In this document: piece by piece, positions 15,726-47,780 of the stretch
How the letters are laid out: every line of letters starts with the position of its first letter
How positions within the stretch are numbered: the stretch's first letter is position 1
Program-made: the position numbers and the translations under genes
Source of the DNA: Sphaerolaimus hirsutus
Taxonomy: Eukaryota > Nematoda > Chromadorea > Monhysterida > Sphaerolaimidae
Length of the DNA: 64,000 bases
Assembly: GCA_964036195.1 (NCBI GenBank)
Contig: OZ038450.1
Span: 29,700,794 to 29,764,793 of the forward strand
Direction of reading: 5' to 3'
Notes under the pieces: model-generated
What the model saw: only the letters and a program-made list of their open reading frames with translations
Database searches by the model: none
What the model was told of the DNA's origin: nothing

Positions 15726-15759
15726 CTGGGAGGGAATTTATTTTGTAAGTAATGTAATT

Positions 15760-16384
15760 GAGGCGTCTAATTCTAAAAGTCGACAAGTCCACAAAATGCG
15801 ATTTTGAGTAAAGCGCATTTTAAGTTTCAAACCCAATTCCAGGCCCGTGGTGTGTGTCTTATTTGGCTCTCTCACGCTTTCCATAAAGTTCCATATGTTG
15901 ACAATAAAGTGTCGAATTTTCAGCCCCTAATCTCAACGTATATGTGAAAAATGGGGTGTCCATAAAATTCCATTCGATCAGAGCAAAACTGCTCTTGGGA
16001 GGGAAATGGCCTTCTTGCACGCGAGAACATTTTTGTTCGCGCCCGCGTTGCTCCTCCTTTATGGGAAATTAATGCACTTGTCGACTTTTAGAAATCGGTG
16101 CCCATAGTGGACTTATCACATTTCTTGCGTTTGTTTTTCCATAAAAAGGATGCGGAGGATGGACTTGTCGACTTTTAGCCCAAAACTAAGTGGACTTGTC
16201 GACTTCTTGCCCAATTTTTTTGCATTTTCCCCAAAAATGTCAAATTTGGCACTATGCCATATGGGCATGTGAAGTCAAAAAATTTATGGAAAATGATGAA
16301 AAATGTGCGGAAGTAGCCCCAGATGACGTTTCTGGGCCTAACTCAAAAAATTTCATATTTTGGACTTTTAGAATTGGACGCCTC
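15760..16384. mobile_element. MITE with GAGGCGTCTAATTCTAAAAG ends
   Basis: Inverted ends GAGGCGTCTAATTCTAAAAG and CTTTTAGAATTGGACGCCTC, flanked by AATT. GTCGACAAGTCCAC words are iterated inside. It lies in the intron between exons d' and e'. The equivalent intron of the first set contains the same family in the opposite orientation, there split by the 12.7-kb element. Confidence 0.8.
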
Positions 16385-16537
16385 AATTTCATTCGAAAAT
16401 TGGATGTGAAAAAGTTTACATGCTAAATCATAAAAAAGATTCACAATAATCAAATTGTATCCACAATTGTTATTTTGCAAAGGAGAATTTGCACATGCAA
16501 AACTCAGGTGGCCAGTTTTAATTTAAGTCAAGCAAAC

Positions 16538-19601: not shown

Positions 19602-21486
19602 TAGGGTTGGAAAAAAAACGTTTTTTTTAACTCGATGTTTTTTTTTTTTAAAAAACGTTGTTGTTTTTTTAAAAACGTTTTTTTTTAAAAGCTCCCAGAT
19701 ATGACCTAGTGTCAACATATATAGGTATATCAGACACTGGCAATACTCTGTGATGTTAAATATGACCATATAATGGCTGTGGAGCCATGGGATAGCATTA
19801 TAAGTGGTGATTTGTGTCAAAAATATCCATTTTTGTTGACATATTGTTTGTAAAGAGCCGGCTAATATAATTGAGCTTTTCACGACAGCCGTTTTTAAGC
19901 ATATATAACTCACGCCCCAAGAGGATTTGGGCCAAGCGGCCCGATATGCAACTGCCCCCAGGACTTTACTAGAAGCACCCCCGGGGGGACCCCCGTGGCT
20001 GCTCTGATGCAGCCACAGGGGCGCCCCCCGTAAAAAATTTTCATTTTTTGCCCGGCCGATATAAATGAGCTGTTAACGGACATTTTTTTTGCGCGCTTTA
20101 CACACAATGTGTAAAGCGCACAATCGGTATGAAATTGGATACGTCTGGAAGAGAAATTCACACTCTTTCGTTTGAGCGTGGATTCAAGCCCTGTATCCAA
20201 AAAAAATCGCGATTTTTTAAAAGTTATCGCTGAATTAAATAAAATCAGTCTATCGTTACTGAATCTACAGGGTGGGGGTAAAGATTTAATTGTGGGAGGG
20301 TGAAAACTTAACGATGGGGGTTTAAAATTTGACATAGTATACAGAAAACTTTGGCGCACATTTTGAATACATCACCCCCACACATCTGTACACAGAGAAA
20401 AAACTTTCGTAAAATAAAATTTGAAATTTAAACTTACGTTTTCTCGTCCAGGGGCGGAGGAGGACAATAAAACGTTAGTTTAAAGTTCAAATTTTATCTT
20501 ACGAAAGTTTTTTTTGGGTGTACAGATGTGTGGGGGTGATGTATTCAAAATGTGCGCCATAGTTTTCTGTATACTATGTCAAATTTTCAACCCCCATCGT
20601 TAAGTTTTCACCCCCCCACAATCAAATTTTCACCCCCACCCTGTAGATTCAGTAACGGTAGACCGATTTTTTTCAAATCAGCGATAACTTAGAAAATTCG
20701 CGATTTTTTTAAGATACAGGGCTTGAATCCACGCTCAAAAGAAAGAGCGTGAATTTCTACACCTGAAGTATCCAAATCGGATAGCTTTGCTTGCTTTACA
20801 CATTCCGTGTAAAGCGAACAAAAAAAATGCCACAAAAAGCTTGATCATATTGACCAACTCAAAAATGAAAAATTTTTACGGGAGGCGCCCCTGTGGCTGA
20901 GGGGGTGCAGCCACAGGGGTCCCCCCGGGGGTGCGAGTAGACAACACCTGGGGCTAACTCCAACCCGGGTTACAGGGCCCAGCCTCGCTTAGGGGGTGAG
21001 TAATTTAACAATGTTGCGATTTCGAGCCGAAAGCTCAATTATATTAGCCGGCACTTTATATCGCCTTATAGTCGAATGTTCGTGACTTCAGGTAAAGTTT
21101 GGCACAGAATGGTGATCAAACAATGTTATAAAAGGAGGTTGTTACTTTGGGAGTGAAGTTACACATTGTGGAGGTACATGGAAGCACATTACCTCAATAT
21201 TATATATTACAGCAACATATGTCGGCTTATTCACCCATGGTAGCACATAGAAATGGATGTTTTGATACTAAAAATGCAACAAAACCAATGAGAACAACCA
21301 CCAATGTCAATTTTTGTGTGAAATTGCGCGCTTGCGCGCAAAAATTTTGCAAAATACCTAGTGCTTAGTACTAAAAATTTTGGCCGATGTTTTTTAAAAA
21401 AAACAAAACATTTCGGACGTCATGTTTTTTAAAAAAAAAAACGTTTAAAAAAAAAAACGTTTAAAAAAAAACATCGGCCAACCCTA
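19602..21486. mobile_element. TAGGGTTGG element, AAACGTTTTT word, with nested foldback
   Basis: Starts TAGGGTTGG and ends CCAACCCTA. Both ends carry long iterations of AAAACGTTTTTT. The unique core (19,690-19,856 and 21,053-21,370) is shared with the elements at 51,809 and 53,778. A palindromic foldback (19,857-21,052) is inserted in the core. Confidence 0.85.
19857..21052. repeat. Foldback palindrome with ~570-bp arms
   Basis: GCCGGCTAATATAATTGAGC at 19,857 pairs with GCTCAATTATATTAGCCGGC at the right end. The arms stay paired through CAGCCACAGGGGCGCC blocks to a centre near 20,450. The sister element at 53,778 lacks it, so it is a separate insertion. Confidence 0.8.
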
Positions 21487-23845: not shown

Positions 23846-24092
23846 TTATTCAAAAATCTTTAAAACCAACTGAACAAAATTGGATGTCATACCACTTCCA
23901 TCAGAAATGTCAGCATTTCCAGAGTGATAAAAATCCCCAATTTCTTTGAATTCATCCACGGAACGATCATAAACTGGCGGCTTGAATGGAGGGCTCGCAT
24001 TTCGACATTTCTGCGCCAAATTCAGTCGCTGGGATAAAAATGCCCGTCCGCGGCCCACGCCACCCATGTAAATTGGTTGTGGATTTGGGCAC
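23846..24092 (-). CDS. HECA-like gene, exon e (terminal)
   Basis: Acceptor CCCTCCCAG at 24,093, one base completing a split codon, then 82 codons ending in TAA at 23,846. It begins CPNPQPIYMGGVGRGR. Its phase fits exon d at 37,661, which ends two bases into a codon. The intervening intron is 13.5 kb because it received the 12.7-kb element. Confidence 0.6.
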
Positions 24093-24184
24093 CTGGGAGG
24101 GAAATTTCGTTTGTAGTTAATATCATTCAATTGGAAAATTGAATGTGAAAAAGTTTATATGTTTAATTACAAATGATGATAATT

Positions 24185-24370
24185 GAGGCGTACAATTCTA
24201 AAAGTCGACAAGTCCAAAATGTAAAAATTTCGAGTTAGGCCCGAAAACGTCATCTGAGGCTACTTCCGCACATTTTTCATCATTTTCCATAAATTTTTTT
24301 ACCTCATATGCCCATATGGCAAAGTGCCAAATTTGACATTTTTGGGAAAAATGCAAAAAATTTGGGCAAG
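24185..24370. mobile_element. Left part of a MITE split by the 12.7-kb element
   Basis: Begins GAGGCGTACAATTCTAAAAG and runs to GGGCAAG. The remainder resumes at 37,085 with CAAGAAGTCGACAAGTCC and ends at 37,547. Uninterrupted copies at 47,068 and 15,760 contain GGGCAAGAAGTCGACAAG, which defines the empty site exactly. Confidence 0.85.
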
Positions 24371-25256
24371 TATAATAAAGTGGACCCCCGGTTACTACAA
24401 CATTATCCTTATAGGCCAAATAGCAACACCTTGGACAATGTCCACTTCCGTCAGAACTTTCAACGATGCGCTCATGCAGTCCATCCTGCCTAATTACGCC
24501 AAATGTACAGCACCTAGCAGGGGACTTAGTTACCTTTTGCACGTGTGGAACGACAAACGATGGCAACATGCCAACATAATGATCGCACAATTCCGACAAT
24601 TCAACAAGCGACATAATGTCCACTGGACGATCAATAACTGCCCTACAAGCCCTACGCTTGGCGCGTGCGCGGGAACCCTGTCTGCCAAACTTCACCAGCT
24701 TGGTGCCTTTCGACCTAGCTACTCCGAAGGACGTAGGCTTCTGAGCTTTTCGGTCTACTTGGTTGCCACAGCTAACAAAGTCCGGTCGCGCAAATTGCAA
24801 AAGCTTGCGGCGAATGACGTGCGGCTGTAATTTCCCTCTCTTACCCACCAAATACCAAAGGTTTCTAGGCTGCACAGACTTCTTCAGCCTTTCAGCAGTT
24901 CCCTCAAAAACACCACAAATTCCGGGCTCAATAAAAGCTGGCTCCATGATCAAGTGATCAAGCAACCACTGCTGAGAAGCATCACAAATTACTTCACCAT
25001 TGGGCAAGATAGAATCAACGACGAGATCACCGGCGCCCTGAACCTTTTCCGCATACGTAGCCCTTCGTTGAATTTGAAACACTTCCGATACGGGTTCAAA
25101 ACTATCAAAAGCAGGGCCCGTCTCCAAATCATCAATTTCCCAGAAACCTTCAGAACTTGGCGCACTTTCAGAAACAGAAACAAGATTCGCCCACGCTTCC
25201 AAAACCGACAATTCAACCTTATTTGAATGCAAACAAACAAAAGCGACTTCCATCAT
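24371..25256 (-). CDS. Unidentified ORF reading through the element's left end
   Basis: From ATG at 25,256 about 295 codons stay open to the element boundary. The frame then continues into host MITE sequence and stops at 24,198. The product has an acidic N-terminal third, a strongly basic stretch in the middle (GSRARAKRRACRAV), and a Cys-rich part (CTFGVI then HCPRCCYLAYK) that could be a zinc ribbon. No family recognised. One hairpin of the element's conserved type (24,712-24,755) is embedded in the coding sequence. The lack of a stop inside the element may mean that the end is truncated, that the last codons are spliced away, or that a stop is supplied by each target. Confidence 0.5.
24712..24755. 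repeat. Conserved-loop hairpin inside the 24.4-25.3 kb ORF
   Basis: Outer stems GACC/GGTC and AGCT/AGCT, inner stem GAAG/CTTC, loop GACGTAGG. The loop is the same octamer as in the array at 29.7-31.2 kb. A 23-bp stretch around the loop is shared with the hairpin at 26,751-26,814. Confidence 0.6.
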
Positions 25257-26987
25257 GATTTCACAAATTAGAATTAGAAGTGATTAGATCCACTAGCTGG
25301 AATGAGCCAATAGATTAAGTAGAGAATTAGTTGCACCAGAGTAAACTTGAATTACATTAATTGGGTTTCTCAGATAACGTTGCAATTAAAGTTTCCAAAG
25401 TATTTGAATATTTCCAATTTACCTTTCCACTTTCCAAATCAGAACATTAACATAAAAATGACTAAATAACACTCAGGGTCATGAAAGCTAAACCAGACAG
25501 GTGAGGATAGCAATACGATGCAATGGTAAGAGACCACACAAGACCAGGTACTTAAATCCTAGCTTGGCACAGCACCACTATCAAAAGTAATCTACAACGA
25601 CGTAGCACAACTGTTTGGGCCCTTACGAAAGCCTAGAGCGAGTCAATAGGTGTACAGCCTACTTCAGCTTATACTACGCCTAAAACAAGTCCACAGAGGT
25701 CCAGACGTACAGTAAGCATCACAGATGGTGGGTTCTCCCCATACAACACCCTATCTTAGCTATACCGGCAGCTCCGTGTGGCCACTCCTGCCCCTGTGAA
25801 CCTAAATGTCACCGTGCAGAGGGAAGAGAAGGCCTATGCCAGAGTTAGCAGAGAATGAATAACCAAGGGTAGGCTCATTTCAGCTGGTAAATCACTGACT
25901 TAGTAATTAGGATTGGATTGAATAGACTGATGATAATCACTGGATTGGGGCTCTCTTTTATGGGTTTGAAGTGCCCAAAACTGGTTTGCAGCTGGGCGGA
26001 GCCAACCAATCACGAAAGTGCATTCGAAAGTGTACCGAAAATAAGTGACTTCAGTTGAACAGAGCCATGTTACCACAAGGGTTACTTTTTAATGGAACAA
26101 GGGGAATGGTGACTTGACATTCAGGAACACCTTTCTTCTGGCACTCAGCCAGCTAATAAAACCAAACTTGGAACTGTGCCAAACTAGAAAATGACATACC
26201 TACAGTAACCTACCAAATGTAAAACGCACAACTAACAGCTTAAAAATGACTAAACTGAGTGAAACTCTCAAAACTGAACGTGATACAATCAACAACATGC
26301 CGAGTGAATCCACAGCTAGTCGAACTGCAAACGAATACAAAAAGGGACCAAAAATACAAAAGTAACCGTGTTTGCTCAAACGTGAGCTCGTCCAAAACCA
26401 ACGTACCAACCGGCCAACGTGAAACTAAATACAAGTGCAAAAGTGCAAAACACAGAAATACGTGCGAAACGTAAAACATAATCACGAACACGTGCAATTA
26501 TCACAAACTAAGGGGGTTAGGTGGGTAATTAAGTGCAAATAAATACATATACATACGTAATAAATCACATACCGCGGCACCTACCGCGCACCTACTCCCT
26601 AAACCTACTCCTACACCCTACAAAATCACAAAACTCCTCCCTGTGGCAGCAGTGGCTACGGGATATGTGCCAATTTACACACAAAAACTGCCTTTTTGGC
26701 ATTCTTCCAATTTCCTTTACTAATTTTAACCTAAGGCACATATCCCTCCAGAAGGGTTGACCCGTCTCTACTCCGAAGGACGTAGGCTTCTGGAGCTATC
26801 GGGGCCCTCCCTTCCGGTGGCCACTCCCACCAAGAACTCTGAGCGGCCGAAGTCTGTCGCTCCGCGGACGTTCCCGGCGGCCACGCTGTCGACGCTCGCG
26901 GGGACTGGGTAGGGGGTGAATTTATAAGTTTGAGTGATAAACTGTCGCCCAAACACGGCGACAGTGCTTAACCCCCCTCGAAAATAC
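25257..26987 (-). other. Long leader between the inner repeat and the 24.4-25.3 kb ORF
   Basis: This 1.7-kb stretch lies between the inner 666-bp repeat and the ATG at 25,256. It has no long ORF and is AT-rich in its middle (26,160-26,600). If the 666-bp repeat is a promoter, this would be the 5' leader or contain an intron of the downstream ORF. One hairpin of the conserved type occurs at 26,751-26,814. Confidence 0.4.
26751..26814. repeat. Conserved-loop hairpin near the inner repeat
   Basis: Nested pairings GAAGGG/CCCTTC, CCCG/CGGG, CTCC/GGAG and GAAG/CTTC close on the loop GACGTAGG, with a single bulged T on the 3' side. The architecture is that of the array hairpins although the stem bases differ. 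Confidence 0.65.
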
Positions 26988-27377
26988 ACTAAGTGCCGCT
27001 TTCAGAAAGTTGGCACTCGGCCAAGAGTGGCCGATTCGACACTTTACAAAAACCGCCCAAAACCACCCAAAATCCCCCTCTCCCGGGTTCCGGCGGTCGG
27101 CGGTCGTTGAATGGCGGCGACGCGGCGCTGTCGCGGCCGTCGAAGTCGTTCGCCGGCGCTCGTTTGGCCGCCATGTCCAAGAGAATCGCTTTTCCGCTCG
27201 GCGCTGCTTTTCCTTTTAATGAAAAGCGCCGTAACTCTCGCGAAAGTTAGGTTCCGTTCCCGGGGATGTCGAGTGACGTCACCCGGCCGTGTTCACAACT
27301 AAATACATCCAATTAGGCCGTTTTGCCAATTAGGGCCGGCGGCATAGCGCCATCGATGTACCGTTCCATGGTAATTC

Positions 27378-27430
27378 GCGCTGAATCACCGTCCCAGAGG
27401 CGTAGGTCTGGCACTTTGGTGATCTGGCGC
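27378..27430. repeat. Conserved-loop hairpin, inner repeat, first
   Basis: Outer stem GCGC..TCACC / GGTGA..GCGC, inner stem CCAGA/TCTGG, loop GGCGTAGG. An identical copy occurs at 36,809-36,861. Confidence 0.75.
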
Positions 27431-27582
27431 CAATTACCATAGTTGGCGTCCGTTGCGCCGTAAGTTTCCTATAAGTTAGGTTCACATATGGCGACGTCGT
27501 AATGACGTCACTTGGCCCAAAAGGGTCAATATGGCGTCCCCGGCGACTAAAGCGCCATAACTAGGGTTTAGTAAGCGTTAAT

Positions 27583-27639
27583 TGACGCTGGGTCACCGTC
27601 CCAGAGACATAGGTCTGGCACTTTGGTGGCCCGCCGTCA
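27583..27639. repeat. Conserved-loop hairpin, inner repeat, second
   Basis: Outer stem TGACGCTGGGTCACC against GGTGGCCCGCCGTCA, inner stem CCAGA/TCTGG, loop GACATAGG. An identical copy occurs at 37,014-37,070. Confidence 0.75.
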
Positions 27640-27653
27640 GTTCTCGCATTACA

Positions 27654-28356
27654 TACTATACCGACCTTTTGAGCGCTGGCCCAGCGCGAACAGGCATCAC
27701 ACTTCCTCCCCCCTTTTCTAAAAGCGCGGGTTAGTCAGCGTAACAGCAGCGAAGAGGGTGTTATATACTATTTACAAGGGACTGTCGAGACTGATGTTGA
27801 TATTTTTCATGTATTTAAAGCGTTGCGGTGTATTACAGATAGATATTTGAGGTACGTTAAAATTGCTACCAGATCGCAAGTGGAACCCTGGAAAATACGC
27901 CAACATGTGCACTGGAAGCACCCTAATAAAGCGTCGGAACCGAATCTAAGATTATGGCAAGAAAAATTTTAAAGGCAGAATCGTGAGAACCGTAAGTGAG
28001 ACCGAAAGGCAAGTGGAATGCCACTAAAACAAAATATAAACTAAACGTGACTAAATTGAAACCACTACAAAGGCTAGAATTATTCACAACAATACAAAAT
28101 ACAACAATTCACAAAAGGGATCCCGATAGAAAACATTCCAACTACACAACTCTCAGCCTAATCGCAAGCACAAAAACAACGGCATTTAATCTTGGTGGCA
28201 CAAACGCAGCTACTAATCAAATCGGCGGCTAACTTCACAAAACACATGGCTCAAGCAGTTTACCTCCACACAATTACCAAAAATCACCGCGTGCAACTAA
28301 GTGACTGCACTTACTAAGAGAAAATTTCAGAAAAGCGATATCAAAACATACACAAT
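27654..28356. other. Non-coding segment of the element
   Basis: AT-rich sequence between the inner repeat and the hairpin at 28,357. No ORF with domain or splice support was found on either strand. Confidence 0.4.
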
Positions 28357-28411
28357 GGGTGCTTTGGTCAGTCCCAGGGACGTAGGCTTGGCACTTTAGA
28401 CCGCTGCACCC
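28357..28411. repeat. Conserved-loop hairpin downstream of the two-exon gene
   Basis: GGGTGC/GCACCC and GGTC/GACC outer stems, inner stem CCAGG/CTTGG (one G-T wobble), loop GACGTAGG, 3' bulge TTA. Confidence 0.75.
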
Positions 28412-28575
28412 AACTCACACTAGAAACTGAATCAGTACGCGTCGTGGTTCACCTGCACCATAGTAAAAAGAGATAATAGCGGGTACAAAAATAAATTTGG
28501 CAAATGTTGTTGTTGGAATTACTACGTTTACCTCAAAGCGGAAAGGAAATAATACTCAACGCAGGATCGAAGCCA

Positions 28576-29288
28576 TTAAAATTGCAATTTGATATCTACG
28601 AAATTGCCAATCTGTTCCAGGGTGATATTGATAGGAAAACTATGTGAATTAATAACTCGCGTGGTCACATGCATGGGGGGCCCGACAGAAAGATGCGGGT
28701 CATAAGTGAAATCAGTTGGTGAAATCGACGACTCCCTATTCGGTAGACAGTGGGCCGGTACTTGCATTGGGGTGCCAGTGCCATGGATTTGACATTGTTG
28801 AATCGGTGCCACATGGCCAGTTATTGCCAACAGTGGCTGGTCATTTCCAAAAGCCGTGTTTCCCCACAGAAGGACAGATTCACTCAAGCTGAAAGAAATT
28901 TTGGTCATTATACACAGTTTTTTTTTTCACGCTGAACCCATGAAAATTCTCACTTTTCGCGACGGGGATCTTGCCAATCAAGCTCACGTTGAAGTGGCTG
29001 TGTGAGCCGCATTTCTCCAGCGGTCACACGCATGACAATTTCATTGTCTCCTTGGTACATAAATTCATGGAAATTTATATTTGGTGAACCAGTCATGACA
29101 GACATTGTCAAGCAATGAGTGTGGCCAGCATTTTGATTTTGATCCATAGTCAAGAAGGATAGATGCAGAAAAGTGTTTCCTGTGCAAAAATATTCCGTTA
29201 AAGTTTCAAGGAAAACATGAGAAAATTTTGGAAAAACATGAAGATTGAAGTGAAACTGAACTAAGCTGTTTTCCACTAATATGGCCAT
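28576..29288 (-). CDS. Two-exon gene of the element, product unknown (215 aa)
   Basis: Exon 1 is 29,288-28,954 and exon 2 is 28,888-28,576. The 65-nt intron has a GTGAGA donor and a TTTCTTTCAG acceptor, and the phases fit exactly (two bases plus one). Without splicing, exon 1 meets a stop at the junction, which supports the intron. The product would be about 215 residues, His/Asn/Thr-rich, with alternating hydrophobic residues suggesting beta structure; no family recognised. A possible acceptor (TTTTTGCAG) lies just upstream of the ATG, so an earlier exon cannot be excluded. A spliced gene argues that the unit has been expressed from DNA in a nucleus and is not a plain retrotransposon pol/gag remnant. 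Confidence 0.6.
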
Positions 29289-29696
29289 TGTGTGGCTGCA
29301 AAAATTTGTTCCCAGCCATAACCAGCAAAAATTATTGGTGATTACTTTAAATGTGGGAAGCGAAAAGTCTTTATCCAGGTGGCTGTTTAAAAGAAAGTGT
29401 TCAAGGTCACTGGAGTTTTAAAGGAAAAACTGTGTGCACAAAATTCCATGAGTCCAGTCCCAAATAATTACACAATGACCGGGGGCCGTCCTGATATTCT
29501 AAATACACATGTAAAGCCAGGGGCCCTCTTCGATGTGACCACGCGGTTTTGTTAAATACAGGTAAAATACAAAAGCGGCGTAGAAAGCTAAGAATAATTA
29601 TTTACAGCGACGCTCAGTATGGTCGAGGTATAACTATTTAAAACAACTCAAAATTACGCGGCGTGAAGAAACACAAATTTTACCTTGTCTCTGGGT

Positions 29697-31154
29697 CCAG
29701 GCCATGGGGTAGTCCCAGGGACGTAGGCTTGGCACTTTAACCCCCTCAACCTGGCCCTCAGAGACATGATACCACAAATGTATACAAGGTTGCAATCAAA
29801 AATGGAAAATTTCCTTTCATTTAAAGAGAGAGTTAGGTGTGTGTGTGCCGATACCAACCCCAAGGACGCAGGCTTGGCGCTTTAGGTTCCAACGCACACA
29901 CACCGCGCCCTTATAAATTACTACTCATCGCACGAAAATAACAATGGCAGCTCAAAATGACAAGAATAGGGAAAAAGTCCCCAAAGTACGAGAAAAATGG
30001 CAGAAACGTGCGCAAAAATGAAGGATATAAAATCGTAAATGCGGCGGACGGCATAACTATTAATCCTGAGACCATTAAATTTTATTCCCTAAAGATATTT
30101 GTACCCATTTTACGCACCACAACGCTACACGGCTGGTGACAATCCCAAGGGCGTAGGCTTGGCATTTTAGGCACCAGACTGCGTTGCGAAGTGACACTGT
30201 GGCAACTCAAAAGTGACAGACTAAGGGAAAAAGTCCCAAAATGCGAGGGGAATGACGAAAACTGCGCAAAAAAATGAAGAATAAAAATCGCAAACGAAGC
30301 AGGCGGCGTGACTATTAAATCTTGAGACCAATTAGTTTGTTTCCTGAGGTTATTTGAACTCATTTACGTACCACAACGCTACATGGCTGGTGACAATCCC
30401 AAGGACGTAGGCTTGGCATTTTAGGCACCAGACCGCATTGCGAAGTGACACTGTTTCCGAAAAATAAATAATTACAGTTGTTGGTTTCCAGGTATTTGGA
30501 TGAATTGCGAAATTCGATGAGGTTAAAGGGCGAGACAAGTGATTGTCAATTTGGGAAGGCCAGCAATACCATGCCGTGTGCCACCAGTGACAGTCCCAGG
30601 GACGTAGGCTTGGCACTTTAGTCACCGACGGCACATTGCACGATAAACTGTCAATCAGGGTATGAAATTCTGGCGACTATGCGGCTGGCGTCAGAATAAT
30701 CCCAGGGGCGTAGGCTTGGGACTTTAATTCATCAGTCAGTCATCATAGCGCACGTGTACTGCAGAAAAAGACCCCTTTTATTTCGAAACATAAGTAGCAT
30801 TTTTAAATCGTTGCACAACTGTGTGAGGCATTATAACAATACCTCGTCAGTACGTCGCCACGCAGTGCTGGGGGCAATCCCAGAGACGTAGGTCTGGCAC
30901 TTTAGACCCCAACACCGCATTGCGCCGTCATGGCAAGGATAACCGTATAAATAAATTTCGATAATTCTGACATCACCGTTGGATAATCCCAGGGGCGTAG
31001 GCTTGGGACTTTAATCCTCCGGCTAATTAGCTCATATAAAAGTATAGCCATCACACAATTGTCAAAATAAAATCGATCAGACATCAAGGAGTTGGGTGTA
31101 TTTGCGCCGGGACAATCCCAAGGGCGTAGGCTTGGCATTTTAGTCCCGACACCC
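29697..31154. repeat. Array of nine conserved-loop hairpins
   Basis: Nine hairpins lie at about 29,697-29,754, 29,837-29,903, 30,120-30,187, 30,375-30,440, 30,578-30,634, 30,677-30,747, 30,860-30,924, 30,977-31,023 and 31,094-31,154, spaced roughly 100-280 bp. Each has a private outer stem, for example GTGTGTGTGC/GCACACACAC, CTGGTG/CACCAG, GTGAC/GTCAC or GGGAC/GTCCC. Inside is a C-C mismatch, a five-pair inner stem (CCAAG/CTTGG, CCAGA/TCTGG or wobble CCAGG/CTTGG), the loop GRCGYAGG and a 3' TTA bulge. The array begins about 35 bases past the stop of the 1,171-codon ORF and covers its likely 3' untranslated region, or an antisense transcript. Confidence 0.85.
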
Positions 31155-31186
31155 ACACACCGCACTCCTCTATTGCCTGGCACAAG

Positions 31187-34100
31187 CTACTTAGTGCGGA
31201 CCTGACGCAGGCGGTGTACCCTACGAGCGGCCTTATTTGCCCCTCGCGGCAGGTTGTGCTCGCGTTCAATCACTGCAAGTTGCGGGATGGGGCGCTGGCC
31301 CAATTCCACCTGCTGTCCGATCGCAATGGCCGGATCTTGGCCTTGGACAAACTGCACGGTCGTGATAGTTGGCGGAATTTCACTGGGGGCATACCGCCGC
31401 ACCGCCCTGCACCGTGCAATTCTATCCACGAGTGCAGTGGACAGCGGTTGAAGCGGTCGTGGCCGTTGGACGGCGCCTCTGCATTTCGCAAGGGTGGACA
31501 TCGCCAATTCATTCAGGCTCAGAACAGGCCACGGACGCAGTGCGGGTTCACGTGCTAGTTGCTCCGCCATTGTCATATGCAGCCGGCCCAGCCAGTTGTC
31601 ACCCCACGTCTCTACGCTTGTCCAAAGAGTCCGGTCGTTCATACCTTGTTTAATACCCCAGAACGGGTCGTGTGGGCTCGCCTCGATAAAAATCGAGTCG
31701 GGGTTGTTAGCGAGGGCGTTCCGGTAGGCCGGGCAGGTCGCCAGCTTGAGTCGCAAAACAGCGTGCATGGCTGCAACGGCAAGACCGCAGTTGTGCCACT
31801 CCTGCTGTTTCTGTTTCCAGCCGGCGATTCTACCCTCCCTACGCCAGGACGTCATCTGAGACTTGCAGCGACTAGGCTCCGAGTGTCTGAGCAGGGGCAC
31901 AATCAAATCGTGATCCCCGCTAAAGATCAACTGCAGAACGTGATACAAGTGCTCAGATGACGGCACGTACAGATCGCCCATTAGTGGAATAGGGGCCCTA
32001 AAAAAGTTCCCCAGCGGACTATCTCCGGAGAAGAATAGATACGTGTGGTAGTCGCCAATCGATATCGTACCCACGCCTGCGTGCACGTCCGGTCTTCCCA
32101 AACCGGGACTCCCATCCAGTGCCAGCAGCCGGAGGATATACAACCGAAAGTCGAGCCAACGACCTAAAGACGTGTTCAGCACGGGTTGCAAGACAAGGTC
32201 GGAGGGTCTCTTAACAGTCGCACACACGATCTTCGCGCGCAACAAGAAGGCCGTAAACTCGTCCTGAGTCTCATCAAGCATAGCCCGCAGCTGGTCCGGG
32301 TTTGCCTGCCTAAGTCGGTCTTGCCACCTGACCCAAGTTCGTGGCGCTTCGGGGAAACGCACGCAGTATGCCGCCCACTGTTCGTTTGACAGCACCAACA
32401 CGTGTAGGAGTTCCCGCTGTTTGCGCCAAAACGACAACCAATTCAAGATGCACCTAGTCAGTGACACGTTCGTACCGCCACCGAAATAGCGGTGCCCTAT
32501 TGGCAAGGTAGGCAGTACTTCTTCCGAATCGGCGAAGACATTGGGCGGCACAGGCACTTCCAAGGTCAAGGGCGGTTTGTCGCTAAAACTGTCAAGGAAG
32601 AACGGCAAGGCGCGTCCCGCATTAGAGGTGTACCGAGACTCGTCCAAGCTGAGGCTCATAAGCATCTCAGCATAAAGGGGGCGGAGTGGGAGGGGCACGC
32701 TTTCGACGTGTAACCTCTCCCAACCGGGTGCGTACGTTTGCTCCGGCTGGAGCCACTCGCTCATGGCCCTCCTCAACGGGTGTCGCGGGGACCAATCAGG
32801 GTTATAATGCCCTCTGGTCCTCGCGACGGCCACTAAGCGCGCGCGTTCAGCCGGCCCAAACGCGTTTGTCAACCAGTGATTCGACTCGGCCTCCCCTGAC
32901 GCCGCAGGTGGGAGCCCTGCATTCCGCACTAACTGCAGTTGTTTAGTCCCCAAGTTGAAGAACGGTCGAACGTCTTCCCCTTGCATTGTCGCCGCGTAAT
33001 ATTGGCGAAAAATGGTAAACAACTGCGTGATGTGGTCTGGAAGCAGCTCATCCCAGTACTGCGTCATGGGTAGCCAGGCCTCCCGGCGCCAAACGTCGAT
33101 CATACGGCCCTCAATAGGGACCTCGTAGTAGAAATACGGGGTGCTGTTCATAATACCCAGAATCAACCCTGTTTCGAGCGTAATGTACGGGACATTTTGC
33201 TCGCGGAAGAACCGCCGGCCCTGCTCGTGAGTGTGAAAACTATTCACGGCCGGGTTAACCGGGGCCACTTGGACATCACCGTCTGGCTGAATAAGTGCAG
33301 CCGGTGGCACGTAGGCGTCGCGGAGTGGGATCGGTCCAAAACCGTCAAAGGGGTCGTCTCCCAGTTCCGGCACCAAATACGCTGCCGGTTCTAAGGGATC
33401 AACCAAGCCAAACGACGACCACACCGCTGTTTTAGAAAAACCCAGCGCGTCCAGTCTCTCTTTGTTCCCTGAGTCGTCGTGACCAAGCAACGCCCTCGCC
33501 ACAGTGCGAATTCTGTCATCGGTTGCGCTTTCAAACACTTCTTTAGCGAGCTGGTTTCGCACCGGTTGGAGAGGTACGATGCGGAGTCTGTAGGTGCCCT
33601 CGGCCCGGTTCGCTGCTTCCACCTCTTGGGACCAGCTATCCGGAACGTGGTCAGCCGAGACACCCGCATCGGACTGCCCCTCGCCGGCCGCGACCTCCAT
33701 TGGGACTACAATTTCCAGCTGTCCCACTACGCTAGGGGCGGCTGAGGACATCCCTTCATCTGCCGACTCGTCAGGGTTCAAAATGCGCCGGCGGGGGTCA
33801 TCGGGGACTGGCAAGGCACGAGGCTCTACCAGGCCGACATCCCACGTGCGCACGCCAGAAGCTAGCTGGGTGAAGGGGCGCTTGTGCGGGTCGAAAAAGA
33901 AATTGACCAGGCGGTTAGGCGCCGACCTATATTGCGCCCCCTGGAATCCCGCGACGTCCTCCACGGGGCGTCCGTCGTCAAAGCAGCCGTGATGCGGGTA
34001 AACCTTAGTCAACCAAGTATGAACGGGGTTGCCGTCAGGAGTCCCGCTCGTGCGAACCTCCTCAATTGGGTCTGCAGAGGGATCCTGATTGTCAGCCCGT

Positions 34101-34702
34101 CGCATGAGGGAATGCTCCGCATTGTGGATGACATCAAACCGTAAGGGCTCCTGCGGCTCCGGTGGGGCAATTTGGCTTCTCACAGAGTGCAAAACCTGCA
34201 GAATCTGATTGAACGAAAGCGCTGGTTGTGTGCGAGCTAGCTGGTAGGGCAAGGAGGCACCAAATTGGACACGCCCCTGGGGCTCACAAGCGGGTGCCCC
34301 TAGCAACACCGCGAAGTACTGCTCGCGCAGCTCGTACGCCAGTTGTTGGCCGGCTATGATCCTATCGAGGGTCGACTTGGCCGGAATACCAGGGGGTAGC
34401 GGGCGCTCGCTGTATGGCTGAAAAATATGCATGTTCCGTTCGATCGCGCGGGATGTCCACTCACGCGGGCACCAGCCGCAGATGATGTGCACCGCCAGTC
34501 GGCTCGTTTCATCGTAAAAATAACAGAATGGCGAGGCGAGCGGCGTTGCACCAATGTCCGCCGGCTGTTCCGGCCGCGCAAGGCGTGTTCCCACCAGACC
34601 GACATGCATGATCACGGCGTGGAAGTAGTTTAGCGCCTCAACTTCGTCCAGCCGCACCCCTTGGACTTGCAGGTCAAACAGGGCTTTCTCAAGGGGGCAC
34701 AT
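31187..34702 (-). CDS. 1,171-aa protein with C-terminal NADAR/YbiA-like domain
   Basis: The first 870 residues match nothing I recognise; they are rich in Pro, Trp and acidic loops. Residues about 885-1,045 read as a NADAR (YbiA-like, formerly DUF1768) domain. The core order is there: a hydrophobic strand and GNFFRAPI, then SSEHLYHVLQ with the family's conserved Glu, a Trp-rich middle, EASPHDPFWGI matching the D..WG signature, and GDNWLGRLHM matching N.LG..LM. NADAR enzymes are reported N-glycosidases acting on ADP-ribose derivatives, including removal of ADP-ribose from guanine. The last 20 residues are basic. The frame is open for 18 codons upstream of this ATG and overlaps the end of the 447-codon ORF, so translation may instead start by +1 frameshifting. 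NADAR call 0.8; the overall role is unknown. Confidence 0.8.
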   Translation of the reverse strand: MCPLEKALFDLQVQGVRLDEVEALNYFHAVIMHVGLVGTRLARPEQPADIGATPLASPFCYFYDETSRLAVHIICGWCPREWTSRAIERNMHIFQPYSERPLPPGIPAKSTLDRIIAGQQLAYELREQYFAVLLGAPACEPQGRVQFGASLPYQLARTQPALSFNQILQVLHSVRSQIAPPEPQEPLRFDVIHNAEHSLMRRADNQDPSADPIEEVRTSGTPDGNPVHTWLTKVYPHHGCFDDGRPVEDVAGFQGAQYRSAPNRLVNFFFDPHKRPFTQLASGVRTWDVGLVEPRALPVPDDPRRRILNPDESADEGMSSAAPSVVGQLEIVVPMEVAAGEGQSDAGVSADHVPDSWSQEVEAANRAEGTYRLRIVPLQPVRNQLAKEVFESATDDRIRTVARALLGHDDSGNKERLDALGFSKTAVWSSFGLVDPLEPAAYLVPELGDDPFDGFGPIPLRDAYVPPAALIQPDGDVQVAPVNPAVNSFHTHEQGRRFFREQNVPYITLETGLILGIMNSTPYFYYEVPIEGRMIDVWRREAWLPMTQYWDELLPDHITQLFTIFRQYYAATMQGEDVRPFFNLGTKQLQLVRNAGLPPAASGEAESNHWLTNAFGPAERARLVAVARTRGHYNPDWSPRHPLRRAMSEWLQPEQTYAPGWERLHVESVPLPLRPLYAEMLMSLSLDESRYTSNAGRALPFFLDSFSDKPPLTLEVPVPPNVFADSEEVLPTLPIGHRYFGGGTNVSLTRCILNWLSFWRKQRELLHVLVLSNEQWAAYCVRFPEAPRTWVRWQDRLRQANPDQLRAMLDETQDEFTAFLLRAKIVCATVKRPSDLVLQPVLNTSLGRWLDFRLYILRLLALDGSPGLGRPDVHAGVGTISIGDYHTYLFFSGDSPLGNFFRAPIPLMGDLYVPSSEHLYHVLQLIFSGDHDLIVPLLRHSEPSRCKSQMTSWRREGRIAGWKQKQQEWHNCGLAVAAMHAVLRLKLATCPAYRNALANNPDSIFIEASPHDPFWGIKQGMNDRTLWTSVETWGDNWLGRLHMTMAEQLAREPALRPWPVLSLNELAMSTLAKCRGAVQRPRPLQPLSTALVDRIARCRAVRRYAPSEIPPTITTVQFVQGQDPAIAIGQQVELGQRPIPQLAVIEREHNLPRGANKAARRVHRLRQVRTK

Positions 34703-34754
34703 GTCGGCGGCCAGCGTGGGCAGTAGTTTGCCAACTGGGGGCGTTGCCCTTAGT

Positions 34755-34760
34755 TCAAAA
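34755..34760 (-). promoter_or_regulatory. UUU_UGA candidate +1 frameshift site
   Basis: The 447-codon ORF ends CTG TTT TGA A. After a +1 slip, tRNA-Phe on UUU re-pairs perfectly with the next UUU and the ribosome enters the frame of the 1,171-codon ORF. That frame is open for 18 codons before its first ATG. A P-site UUU before a slow UGA is the arrangement known at some antizyme +1 sites. Confidence 0.55.
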
Positions 34761-36098
34761 CAGGTCCAAAATTGTTTGCGCGCGATACCCTTGGATCTCC
34801 AAGATAGCCGGGAGGTCCCTAGGGGCGGGGCTCGAAGCGTTTGCGAACCACGCGTCGTTCACCTGGACCTCCACGGTATCGATTGGGGTGTGTTTCGAAC
34901 CAATGGGGCATTTGAGTGTCTGTCCGGAAAATAGTTGCCACGCGGCGGCAACGAGCACTTCAACTGAAATGTCGGTACAATCGTCTTTATGCTCCATGCG
35001 AAGTTCATCGGTGGTCAACAACAGTTTTTCTAACACCGGAATACAGCTCAACCACTGTGTGGTGGTTGTGGTGGTTCCGGTGGTGTTACAAGGGGGAGGC
35101 GGTGCACCGGACATTCCAATCAAGGTTTCCCGCTCTGCCTCGGACGCGTACAACCGGACAGCCCGGGGGTCACCCCACGCAAACAACAATTTCCCACCCA
35201 AAGGGGTCCAATTATTCGTGGTGGAGCGCAACAAGGCGATCGGAACGTGAACCACGACGCGGTTCGGAAAGCACAATGACACCAAAAACGGATTTTTATC
35301 GCGACTGTCACGGGGCCTCTTATAGCCGAGCGAAATTGAAATAGCTTTGGGCTGGTCCTGTCCCACTGTGGGCAAATAATCACCCAGGTTCTCCAGTTGT
35401 CTGGCATTCTGAATGAAAACTTGCACGATGGGATCGCCAGGATGACACGCCCAAATCTGTTTGAATTTCCGCACAAACGCGGAACGCGTATGCATCCAAC
35501 CATCAAAAGGATCCTCCGGTGTGTAATCCAAGAGGCTCCGGAATCCGAACCGCTGTCTACCCGGTTCATTTACGGGGTACAGAAACATTTCCGGTATAAA
35601 GGTCGCGACTGCCGCCACGACCTCTCTTTTGGCGCTTCTGATGGTTGACGCATGGTTCCGCACGGCGGTCAACATCTGCTCGGCTAATTGGCGCCCCGTC
35701 ACGTCCACACCAGCTAAACGCCAGTCATTGCTGCGCCGCGGTGTCACAAACAATTTCGGAGGCAAACCCCTAGCGGCGCTAAAGGTCAGCACTTCACAGA
35801 GGCGGTTTGGCACGTCGCTAAGAGTGGGCAAATTGCAGGTCCGGAGGAACGCATTGGCGTCTTTAAGCAGGGCCTGGTCTAGTAACCGGTGGTTGCCACT
35901 GTTCAAGGTCTCTTCGAACGCCGTCGGTGAAAAGTTGGCGATATGATCCCCCAACTCGAACACCGTCGACGACACGCTTACCGAGTCGGGACTATCCAAC
36001 GTGCTCAGACTGCGGCAAATTACGCCGTCTCTGTGAAGTACGTCCCACAACACACCGTCGTCGTTATATACAGAAGTAGAAGCGTGCGCTTGTGCCAT
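34755..36098 (-). CDS. 447-aa protein of the element, product unknown
   Basis: It opens at 36,098, about 320 bases inside the outer 666-bp repeat, and ends with TGA at 34,755. No signal peptide or membrane span is evident. It has a Thr/Pro-rich linker (around residue 340) and otherwise reads as a globular mixed protein. No known domain was recognised. Its place upstream of a longer ORF in the +1 frame recalls gag-pol-like layouts, but no zinc knuckle or protease motif was seen. Long, uninterrupted frames and identical flanking repeats suggest a young, possibly active copy. Confidence 0.75.
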   Translation of the reverse strand: MAQAHASTSVYNDDGVLWDVLHRDGVICRSLSTLDSPDSVSVSSTVFELGDHIANFSPTAFEETLNSGNHRLLDQALLKDANAFLRTCNLPTLSDVPNRLCEVLTFSAARGLPPKLFVTPRRSNDWRLAGVDVTGRQLAEQMLTAVRNHASTIRSAKREVVAAVATFIPEMFLYPVNEPGRQRFGFRSLLDYTPEDPFDGWMHTRSAFVRKFKQIWACHPGDPIVQVFIQNARQLENLGDYLPTVGQDQPKAISISLGYKRPRDSRDKNPFLVSLCFPNRVVVHVPIALLRSTTNNWTPLGGKLLFAWGDPRAVRLYASEAERETLIGMSGAPPPPCNTTGTTTTTTQWLSCIPVLEKLLLTTDELRMEHKDDCTDISVEVLVAAAWQLFSGQTLKCPIGSKHTPIDTVEVQVNDAWFANASSPAPRDLPAILEIQGYRAQTILDLF

Positions 36099-36418
36099 TC
36101 TAACGCGCCCTCAAAACAAAACAAGTTTTCTACCGGGATCAAAACTTTCAACAAAAGTTTACAACATTAAAACTCACGCGGAAAAAAAACAGGGAATGTG
36201 CAGAAGAATTAAATTTCAACAAAAACACATAACAATTATAATCACACCACGACTTCCAGGGGCACACAACCAGTGGTCCCAACCTGACCGGAGCACGGCG
36301 AAAACGAGCCGCGCGTCGATCGCAAACGTGCGCGCGTTGCACGATCGAGAAGACACTGCGGTGTTCAAAACTGATGGTTCACACTACTCCCACTACCGGC
36401 TACATCGCACTGAATTAG

Positions 36419-37084
36419 ACTAAGTGCCGCTTTCAGAAAGTTGGCACTCGGCCAAGAGTGGCCGATTCGACACTTTACAAAAACCGCCCAAAACCACCCA
36501 AAATCCCCCTCTCCCGGGTTCCGGCGGTCGGCGGTCGTTGAATGGCGGCGACGCGGCGCTGTCGCGGCCGTCGAAGTCGTTCGCCGGCGCTCGTTTGGCC
36601 GCCATGTCCAAGAGAATCGCTTTTCCGCTCGGCGCTGCTTTTCCTTTTAATGAAAAGCGCCGTAACTCTCGCGAAAGTTAGGTTCCGTTCCCGGGGATGT
36701 CGAGTGACGTCACCCGGCCGTGTTCACAACTAAATACATCCAATTAGGCCGTTTTGCCAATTAGGGCCGGCGGCATAGCGCCATCGATGTACCGTTCCAT
36801 GGTAATTCGCGCTGAATCACCGTCCCAGAGGCGTAGGTCTGGCACTTTGGTGATCTGGCGCCAATTACCATAGTTGGCGTCCGTTGCGCCGTAAGTTTCC
36901 TATAAGTTAGGTTCACATATGGCGACGTCGTAATGACGTCACTTGGCCCAAAAGGGTCAATATGGCGTCCCCGGCGACTAAAGCGCCATAACTAGGGTTT
37001 AGTAAGCGTTAATTGACGCTGGGTCACCGTCCCAGAGACATAGGTCTGGCACTTTGGTGGCCCGCCGTCAGTTCTCGCATTACA
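36419..37084 (-). repeat. 666-bp direct repeat (outer copy, element right end)
   Basis: Forms the right terminus of the element: GCATTACA then the target duplication CAAG. Identical to 26,988-27,653. It is upstream of the 447- and 1,171-codon ORFs and is the likely promoter. It includes hairpins at 36,809-36,861 and 37,014-37,070. Confidence 0.85.
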
Positions 37085-37547
37085 CAAGAAGTCGACAAGT
37101 CCACTTAGTTTTGGGCTAAAAGTCGACAAGTCCACCTTCCGCCGCCATTTTAAATGGGGAAAAAACGCAAGAAATGTGATAAGTCCATCATGGACACCGA
37201 TTTCTAAAAGTCGACAAGTCCATAAATTTCCCATAAGGCAGGCGCAAATTGGACGGGAACAAAAATGTTCTCGAGTGCAAGAAGTCGACAAGTCCATTTC
37301 CCTCCCCAAAACAATTTTGTTAGGTCCGAGTAGAATTTGATAGACACCCAATTTTTCACAAATAAATACGTTGAGAGCAGGGGCTGGAAATTTAACACTT
37401 TATTGTTAACATTTGAAACTTAATGTTGAGCATGAGAGAGCCCCATTGGACACGCACCTTGGACCTGGAATTGGAAATGAAACTTAAAATGCGATTTACT
37501 CAAAATCGCATTTTGTGGACTTGTCGACTTTTAGAATTAGACGCCTC
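37085..37547. mobile_element. Right part of the MITE split by the element
   Basis: Resumes with the duplicated CAAG, carries GTCGACAAGTCCAC words, and ends CTTTTAGAATTAGACGCCTC before AATT. It is continuous with 24,185-24,370 once the element is removed. Confidence 0.85.
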
Positions 37548-37660
37548 AATTATAAACAATATTCACATTCATCGAATTTTATCCACAATTGTAATTTTGC
37601 TAAGGAGAATTTGTACATGCAAAAAATGAGGTGGCCACTTTTAATTTCAATCAAGCAAAC

Positions 37661-41364: not shown

Positions 41365-42235
41365 CCATTATTTTATAACTGCTCCCAAAATTGCTGGGCT
41401 GCAGACTAGTCCAAACAGTACACGTTTAAAACAAAGTACTATTAAGTTATTTTCAGTTACTGGTTTTGAGGCATCTTTCAGCCAGAAAAATCGTGTGTAG
41501 TCTCTAGCTTGGTCATGCAATCCTATTTGCAAAAATGTCTTTTCAATATCGGCAATTAATGCTAGATTGCCTGCCCTGAACCTCAGGAGTAAGCCCAGTG
41601 CTAATGGTGTTGTAATTGGTCCTCTAAAAAGGCACTCGTAGAAACTGGGCCTACCTGCCGACCCATCGTACACGATTCTGCATGATGTCGATTTTCCCGG
41701 CGTGATTACTGGCTGGTGTGGCAGGTAATGAATCCCCTTGTTGTCTGTTTTGTCGTCACAGATCTCAATTACTCCCTTTTCTAGTTGGTCGTCCAAAACT
41801 TTCCGGTATTGTTCAAATAAGTTTGGATCTTTGTTGAATCTTCTTATCAGTGATTTAAACTGCACCAAGGCTTCTGCTTTTCCCGTGGGCAGGTCACTGA
41901 TACTCTATTTATACAGCCAGTCAATATAGTATTGTTTGTTGTTGTCGTTGAATTTTATGCTATTTATTATCATCTCCTCTGCAATGTTGTCATCAATTGC
42001 ATAGGGGTTATCAGTGATTCCCACTGCTTCTAGACTGTGAAATTGTCGTAGTGTTTCCTTTCCTATGGCCACTATGGCTACTTTTTGATGATTTTTTGTT
42101 GGTTCAGTTAAGCTTGAACTACAAGTGAAGTTACAGGCATGATCCATAGTTGCAGAATGTACAGCTACCACAATCAAAGCCAAACAGGCAAACCTGCATG
42201 CAGGTTTTCCTTCTGCAAATTTGTCTATTACCGTG
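41365..42235 (-). pseudogene. BEL/Pao retrotransposon pol fragment
   Basis: The minus strand shows a BEL/Pao-type reverse transcriptase N-terminal half: KSTSCRIVYDGSAG, LLLRFRAGNLALIADIEKTF and RDYTRFFWLKD are the family's characteristic blocks. Upstream, a separate frame at 42,183-41,905 carries the protease-RT linker, ending at a TAG stop directly before the RT part. The YMDD box and everything C-terminal are absent. It is a dead fragment flanked on both sides by CCGTTTT-word sequence, so it either inserted into or was captured by that element. Confidence 0.9.
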
Positions 42236-46978: not shown

Positions 46979-47067
46979 GTTAGTTTGGTTTTTCTATTTT
47001 TATTTTTGTTGTTCCGTTTGAGAAATCGTTGTCGGTTTTTGTCGCAATCTGATCTGAAGTTGAAATT

Positions 47068-47652
47068 GAGGCATCCAATCCTAAAAGTCGACAAGTCCGT
47101 AATATGAAAATTTCGAGTTATGCCCGGAAACGTCATCTGGAGCTACTTTTTCACATTTTTCATCATTTTCCATAGATTTTTTGACCTCACATGGCCATAT
47201 GGCAAAGTGCCAAATTTGACATTTTTTTGGGATAAATGCAAAAAGTTTGGGCAAGAAGTCGACAAGTCCACTTAATTTTGGGCTAAAAGTCGACAAGCCC
47301 ACTGTGGACACCGATTTCTAAAAGTTGACAACTCCAAAAATTTCCCATAAGGCAGCGTCGTCATCACCGGGAACAAAAATGTTCTCGCGTGCAAGAAGGC
47401 GACCATTTCCCTCCCAAAAACAGTTTTGCTCTGACCGAATGGAATTTTATGGACACCCCATTTTTCACATATACGTTGAGATTAGGGGCTGAAAATTTGA
47501 CACTTTATTGTCAACATATGGAACTTAATGAAAAGCCTGAGAGAGCCAAATTGGACACGCACCACGGGCCTGGAATTGGGTCTGAAACTTAAAATACGAT
47601 TTACTCAAAATTGCATTTTGTGGACTTGTCGACTTTTAGAATTAGACGCCTC
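47068..47652. mobile_element. Intact GAGGC..CTAAAAGTCGAC MITE in seipin intron 1
   Basis: GAGGCATCCAATCCTAAAAG and CTTTTAGAATTAGACGCCTC ends. It contains the uninterrupted GGGCAAGAAGTCGACAAG that shows the empty site of the 12.7-kb element. Confidence 0.8.
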
Positions 47653-47780
47653 GATTAGATTTTTGATTGGATTTCGATGCTGCCAACGTTTAAGTGACTG
47701 GCAAAGTGCCTTATACATTAAGTGTCCCATGATGATATTCCCGTGATTTAAAAGTTCGCTTGAAATCGGCATTTTCTCAG

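Follow-up and report, generated by a model that had tools for sequence, protein, structure and literature searches.

Sixteen hairpins built around one apical motif lie in a window of 64,000 nucleotides from the nematode Sphaerolaimus hirsutus (contig OZ038450.1, positions 29,700,794 to 29,764,793 of the forward strand), and all of them fall within a single insertion at 24371-37084 that we assign to a giant Ty3/gypsy long terminal repeat (LTR) retroelement. The relatives of this element in the same genome carry about 20 such hairpins over about 29 kb—in the LTRs, in the coding sequence of one open reading frame (ORF A), in the gap before another (ORF B) and in an array towards the 3' end—and it can be said with high confidence that these form a motif which belongs to the element, is constrained in structure and recurs at similar positions wherever copies were compared. 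The evidence supports the view that evolution has preserved the shape of the hairpins more than their sequence. Their most likely role, proposed tentatively when the whole chain of reasoning is considered, would be that of a reiterated cis-acting RNA element, for packaging or ribonucleoprotein docking, of the retroelement's genomic RNA.

Anatomy and conservation of the hairpins

The octamer GRCGYAGG occurs at 16 sites in the window against a mean of 3.93 in 100 shuffled versions, an approximately fourfold excess. Fourteen of these sites belong to hairpins, the others being non-hairpin sites at 31204 on the plus strand and 31838 on the minus strand, and two GACATAGG sites bring the hairpin total to sixteen. 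An earlier note, made from the letters of this DNA alone, had listed sixteen hairpins, all of which were found again where it had placed them, along with the inner-stem types that it had described: CCAAG/CTTGG, CCAGA/TCTGG, CCAGG/CTTGG and GAAG/CTTC. Fourteen are distinct, because the pair 27399/27606 recurs as 36830/37037 with the duplication of a terminal 672-bp direct repeat, whose copies have 2 differing positions. The hairpins, with the evidence for each, are as follows.

24712..24755, minus strand: hairpin 24730, of the GAAG type, within the coding part of ORF A (fold; LTR pieces of other copies)
26745..26820, minus strand: hairpin 26779, of the GAAG type, in the LTR (fold; LTR pieces of other copies)
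27366..27442, minus strand: hairpin 27399, in the LTR (minus-strand fold and covariance model)
27571..27652, minus strand: hairpin 27606, in the LTR (fold and covariance model)
28356..28412, minus strand: hairpin 28379, 3' array (fold and covariance model)
29682..29770, minus strand: hairpin 29720, 3' array (fold and covariance model)
29836..29904, minus strand: hairpin 29865, 3' array (fold and covariance model)
30118..30193, minus strand: hairpin 30150, 3' array (extent from the plus-strand fold; covariance model)
30372..30447, minus strand: hairpin 30404, 3' array (extent from the plus-strand fold; covariance model)
30567..30645, minus strand: hairpin 30601, 3' array (fold and covariance model)
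30673..30751, minus strand: hairpin 30707, 3' array (fold and covariance model)
30852..30928, minus strand: hairpin 30885, 3' array (fold and covariance model)
30975..31023, minus strand: hairpin 30994, 3' array (fold and covariance model)
31078..31179, minus strand: hairpin 31123, 3' array (fold and covariance model)
36797..36873, minus strand: hairpin 36830, LTR duplicate of 27399 (extent transferred from 27399; covariance model)
37002..37083, minus strand: hairpin 37037, LTR duplicate of 27606 (extent transferred from 27606; covariance model)

On the sense strand of the element, which is the minus strand of the window, a typical hairpin consists of a variable outer stem, a UAA bulge on the 5' side, three base pairs, a G-G mismatch, five base pairs and the 8-nt loop CCUACGYC. 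The mismatch, C-C on the other strand, is replaced by C-G in hairpins 30707 and 30994 and is absent from both GAAG-type copies. The hairpins first described are real, but constrained folds of the minus strand give stems of 12-47 bp, which extend further than had been seen. The further claim that the outer stems are unrelated in sequence yet self-complementary holds for the pairing of the arms in cis, but not entirely for the lack of relationship, as hairpins 30150 and 30404 are parts of a 254-bp tandem unit and hairpins 29865 and 31123 are 78% alike across 77 nt.

Selection for structure, as the earlier note had proposed, is supported by cis pairing, by two-sided changes and by the distribution of diversity along the hairpin between copies. 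The outer arms have a mean duplex energy of -22.4 kcal/mol in cis as against -12.4 in trans, and 0 of 100,000 permutations were as low. A strand-neutral pairing score summed over 19 sequence clusters (242 hits from the window and loci L005-L036, overlapping pieces counted) reached 628 against 307 +/- 31, the highest of 5000 permutations being 440; these clusters are not independent, because several are diverged versions of one slot. In an alignment of the 12 CC-type copies, from which both GAAG-type copies were excluded because their core is shorter, two-sided changes occur at 16 of the 20 modelled pairs. The covariation score of this alignment is 0.514, whereas shuffles gave 0.217, none of 500 scoring as high, and slid versions 0.09-0.19. 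A covariance-model search of the kind that had been suggested was run on the window with these 12 seeds and returned 14 sites at E<=1.8e-14, namely the seeds, which match by construction, and the two duplicates. The next best site stands at E 0.021, leaving no convincing match in the window beyond the insertion; the GAAG-type copies, which lie outside the model, gave partial matches at E 0.15.

The comparison between copies covered the window and 14 other copies for 12 hairpins, with stems defined on the window copy. Mean pairwise diversity was lowest in the inner stem, at 0.003, followed by the adjoining three pairs (0.009), the G-G mismatch (0.017), the UAA bulge (0.027) and the loop (0.043), rising to 0.078 in outer paired positions and 0.115 in both outer unpaired positions and linkers. 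Variation in the loop is mainly at position 7, the Y (132 T, 44 C), with position 5 affected in 9 of 176 cases and the remaining positions in 3. Two-sided changes that keep a pair were counted in 18 cells, where slid controls gave 3-10. An apex that is nearly frozen on arms that drift and yet remain mostly paired suggests that the apical motif is what is recognised and that the stem serves to present it. A separate observation concerns the linkers at 27660-31170, where, relative to loci L023-L036, C-T changes are about twice as frequent per site as A-G changes on the sense strand (0.41, 0.34 versus 0.20, 0.20).

The retroelement and its family in the genome

The boundaries of the insertion were set by comparison with two uninterrupted copies of its target in the window itself. 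The target is a small inverted-repeat element, now represented by 24176-24370 and 37085-37552 and split by the giant element, as seen by comparing the window with itself; its insertion-free copies are at 15755-16392 and 47064-47657. CAAG flanks the insertion on both sides and is single in both uninterrupted copies. The features of the insertion are the following.

24371..37084, minus strand (sense): giant Ty3/gypsy LTR retroelement, a deletion derivative (two uninterrupted target copies, target site duplication CAAG; relatives of about 29 kb)
24367..24370, no strand: left target site duplication CAAG (comparison with uninterrupted copies)
37085..37088, no strand: right target site duplication CAAG (comparison with uninterrupted copies)
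24371..27653, minus strand: 3' LTR, 3,283 bp, TGTAAT...ATTATA (end-to-end alignment with LTR pieces of the C13 copy)
36413..37084, minus strand: 5' LTR, first 672 bp only (the deletion also took the leader and ORF A)
24371..25256, minus strand: N-terminal part of ORF A, beginning inside the LTR and bearing hairpin 24730 (matches the open-frame start in L013)
34755..36098, minus strand: N-terminal piece of ORF B, 447 aa (open reading frame; copy comparison)
31187..34702, minus strand: C-terminal piece of ORF B, 1171 aa, with a NADAR domain (Pfam PF08719, E 4e-13; longer frame in L015)

Compared with its relatives, the copy in the window lacks the leader, ORF A, the greater part of the 5' LTR and some 1.9 kb within ORF B, the last being an internal deletion relative to L015 that separates the ORF B pieces; it has retained the hairpin array and the full 3' LTR. 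The reading of 26982-27653 and 36413-37084 as whole LTRs was rejected, since they represent only the opening 672 bp, shared by both, of an LTR about 3.3 kb long. Similarly rejected were the inverted arms at 24174 and 37558 as ends of the mobile element, since they belong to the small element into which it inserted. That small element bears several GTCGACAAGTCC motifs, and one of its three window copies hosts the giant element. The window LTR has a sole TATAAA at offset 728; ORF A starts at offset 2,398, and the frame at 24198-25256 runs out of the 3' LTR into flanking DNA (compare L013 from 2174 onwards).

A search of the genome (348 Mb, 762 contigs) for the 672-bp repeat gave 40 scored matches of 200 candidates, of which 30 form 15 pairs, including that of the window, and 10 are single. 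The 14 other pairs are spaced 25.2-26.6 kb apart in 12 cases, with 20.6 and 29.3 kb in the remainder. The LTRs, of about 3.3 kb, are nearly identical within a copy over the stretches compared in each: 99.94% over 3,095 bp in C13, 99.97% over 2,993 bp in C7 and 100% over 1,877 bp in C6. In the C13 copy, inspected by eye, CGTA flanks both sides and a TGG motif lies 1 base beyond the 5' LTR; in L013 the motif TGGAGGTCCCACC, also 1 base past the LTR, resembles the complement of a tRNA 3' end, judging from the motif alone. The LTRs of the window and C13 copies start with TG but end in ATTATA, and so depart from the TG...CA form, which is common but not required for the Ty3/gypsy superfamily.

The coding capacity was read from open frames in pieces of four copies. 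ORF A starts within the LTR and carries a zinc knuckle in L013, while an ORF in L014 has RVT_1 at 62-223, RNase H at 286-415 and integrase domains at 646-835, and the best PDB match of this reverse transcriptase (RT) frame is Ty3 Gag-Pol (E 9.6e-95). The zinc-knuckle and RT frames, although they come from pieces of different copies, are probably a single ORF A. ORF B ends in NADAR (L015, 3056-9901; residues 911-1049 of the window piece). On the strength of these sequence features—the paired LTRs, the RT/RNase H/integrase frame, the RT closest to Ty3 and the flanking duplications—the element is classed with the Ty3/gypsy LTR retroelements, as a giant member about 29 kb long. Against a large protein set no homologs were recovered at threshold for the 1171-aa ORF (7999 candidates scored for the whole, 229 for the NADAR part) or for a 352-aa ORF (1465 scored), and a 2576-aa piece of ORF A had no PDB match at E<=0.01. 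The NADAR domain of ORF B denotes ADP-ribose chemistry, and it matches an NCBIfam NADAR anti-phage family at E 2.9e-5, far under the cut-off of that family; a counter-defence role for this protein on behalf of the retroelement is conceivable.

The hairpins follow the element across the genome. In the whole genome a strict core pattern is matched exactly at 998 places and its reversed form at 1. Among 100 matches listed, all on contig C1, 98 belong to clusters with the spacing of the element and 2 are alone (by eye from the table). In the four clusters laid out, hairpins follow the first matching LTR hairpin at 3.6-3.9, 8.4-8.9 (two) and 14.4-14.7 kb, succeeded by the array and the second LTR, with density increasing towards the 3' end; one of the four is about 5 kb shorter ahead of the array. 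The covariance model applied to 18 pieces gave 181 matches, all in sense orientation; since four of the pieces overlap with others, the distinct places number 173. When motif cores were simply counted in 14 array pieces, each had 10-15, those of LTR hairpins among them. The open frame of L013 contains four CC-type hairpins in two pairs, both of which were seen again in 5 of 5 other copies sampled; the hairpin-bearing ORF A frame is open in all 10 such pieces, with the three standard-loop hairpins in one codon phase. GAAG-type hairpins were found in each of the four copies for which LTR pieces were examined (C13, C6, C7 and C1 at 19.4 Mb). The hairpin patterns gave 0 matches in viral contigs, and in prokaryote contigs 4 stretches with a single match each and no surrounding array, which we take as chance. 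From hairpin spacing, C1:510982-562721 seems to hold two giant elements in tandem with one common LTR.

Candidate roles for the hairpins

The proposed role as a docking site on the genomic RNA draws on the arms that pair in cis, the two-sided changes, the 998 matches against 1, the similar offsets and uniform sense orientation of the matches, the four ORF A hairpins in 6 copies, the frozen apex and the zinc knuckle that ORF A carries. What is recognised would be the loop together with the mismatch and the bulge, and the outer stem would present them. An RNA-binding protein encoded by the element, with the zinc-knuckle polyprotein of ORF A as the first candidate and ORF B as the second, might dock on about 20 sites along the 29-kb RNA, dense near its 3' end, and such docking could select the genomic RNA and condense it into particles. 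Both protein binding and a packaging purpose are our inference. The broader notion that a retrotransposon uses an RNA assembly code with many sites, in which one hairpin in coding and noncoding sequence, with loop, mismatch and bulge retained and outer stems evolving separately, is read by the element's own RNA-binding protein, is possible though doubtful.

The acting molecule is probably the sense RNA, which is favored mainly because the sense strand is the genome of a retroelement. The earlier note had pointed instead to a transcript antisense to the ORFs, on account of five inner-stem G-T pairs; this was not supported as stated, as the five share one CCAGG/CTTGG type and G-U outnumbers A-C in the outer arms of the ORF-sense strand, the strand evidence overall being weak and mixed. 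In the 19 clusters there are 67 G-U against 38 A-C pairs on the sense strand (fraction 0.638, with 0.578 in permuted arms), for which p 0.009 is too small, since certain clusters represent the same slot in diverged form; in the window's 14 hairpins there are 38 against 17 (69% versus 59% in permuted arms; p 0.0145). These permutation-based counts supersede earlier sense-favoring ones (42/399 versus 19/313; 73 versus 37) that were uncorrected for composition.

Several observations weigh against a structured sense RNA. Taken individually under one scoring, arms do not always pair best in cis, the cis partner ranking first for only 9 of the 14 on the left and 7 of the 14 on the right, and constraint on the outer stems is only modest, because 173 unpaired cells stand against 205 one-sided and 18 two-sided pair-keeping changes. 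In the 19-cluster count, both LTR clusters and 2 of 3 coding clusters lean to the A-C side rather than to sense G-U, and an A-C stands in the inner stem of five window copies when these are read in sense. Changes among orthologs show no sense preference, with 48 to G-U and 54 to A-C where linkers lead one to expect 84 and 66, such that changes to G-U are the more depleted. Folding energies do not separate the strands either, the sense strand being lower in 11 of 19 clusters (p 0.20) and 13 of 19 by z-scores (p 0.12).

The last two observations are what might be seen if the hairpins acted in DNA, for instance as structures of single-stranded complementary DNA during reverse transcription that provide extra plus-strand starts on a very long template; such a role is nevertheless improbable in view of the static wobble counts, which favor sense RNA, and of the clustering of the hairpins at one end. 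That end-weighted density equally suits docking by a host factor, with the hairpins as elements of nuclear export, stability or translation—the kind to which CTE, RRE and TAR belong—through which an RNA of 29 kb could exit the nucleus or be kept from decay. The structural facts fit this equally well, and a GAAG-type loop sits at LTR offset 868, about 140 nt past the TATAAA. A host factor might, however, be expected to serve further families, and the motif was met only with the giant family (in the window and in 98 of 100 listed places, the genome's other families lying outside the search), so that we consider this explanation unlikely. Precursors of small RNAs in a microRNA-like cluster are suggested by the spans of 44-145 nt and the long minus-strand stems, which overlap the size range of primary microRNAs; the conservation of the hairpins, greatest in the inner stem (0.003, with 0.043 in the loop) and least among paired parts in the outer arms (0.078), is the reverse of what a mature arm requires, making this very improbable.

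Conserved unpaired bases surrounding a variable stem also recall self-cleaving ribozymes, among which twister has a UAA bulge. The chance of this is slight in the extreme: no Rfam family reached its gathering score in the window and no ribozyme appeared at E<=5 in 24000-37500, where the only hit was Xoo8 sRNA, twice, at E 1.7, and by eye no second helix or pseudoknot partner was seen. Twister, IRE, SECIS and kink-turn motifs, compared by eye apart from Rfam, were rejected. The earlier note had further raised double-stranded recombination core sites with an 8-bp spacer, and inverted arms about an asymmetric 8-nt core in a single orientation throughout would suit them. They must now be rated as hardly credible, because double-stranded sites need no cis-pairing arms that differ between copies, leaving the cis-specific outer pairing unexplained; moreover, the element encodes an rve integrase, with no tyrosine recombinase found at E<=0.01 in the five ORF pieces scanned.

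Known systems and neighboring elements

Cis-acting RNA structures are known from retroelements, but we know of none reiterated some 20 times through coding and noncoding sequence. The retroviral TAR, RRE and CTE likewise present a bulge, mismatch and loop on a retroelement RNA, but are single or few, in contrast to the roughly 20 hairpins of the giant element, some within coding sequence. A literature search for structured repeats or hairpins in LTR elements found no paper, which does not itself prove their absence. Packaging hairpins of the MS2 type have variable stems.

The element is of a known kind, and the hairpin is without an Rfam counterpart at the thresholds used. Giant gypsy-like LTR retroelements, termed Burro, have been described from planarians, exceeding 30 kb and carrying zinc knuckles, RT, RNase H, integrase and accessory domains (PMC6431247); with its gypsy-like character, LTRs and giant polyprotein ORF, the giant element is compared with Burro as one of the same kind. 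In the available text of that review 'hairpin' occurs twice, both times in the Helitron section, and NADAR is not named for Burro (PMC6431247). A NADAR domain is carried by an Ectocarpus Gypsy lineage according to the accessible part of its description (PMC12477816); the two share the domain, which in the giant element lies close to the C-terminus of ORF B, a reading frame of its own. Dispersed packaging signals are described for single-stranded RNA viruses such as MS2, where many hairpins of the genomic RNA contact coat protein (PMC4836477). Compared with these, the RNA of the giant element is far longer, its conserved motif seemingly stricter and its hairpins known from sequence alone (PMC4836477).

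One genome offers about 1000 copies of a motif whose apical part is nearly fixed and whose outer stems have re-evolved from site to site. This combination points to the recognised bases ahead of experiment and makes the partner searchable by pull-down, and the motif serves as a marker for the giant element family. If the proposed role is true, a giant retroelement handles a 29-kb RNA by means of about 20 scattered recognition hairpins.

Elsewhere in the window, 41368-41904 and 61974-63995 hold a BEL/Pao-like reverse transcriptase fragment (by eye) and a retroelement integrase (by Pfam), and 20010-20899 consists of nested long inverted repeats of the fold-back kind.

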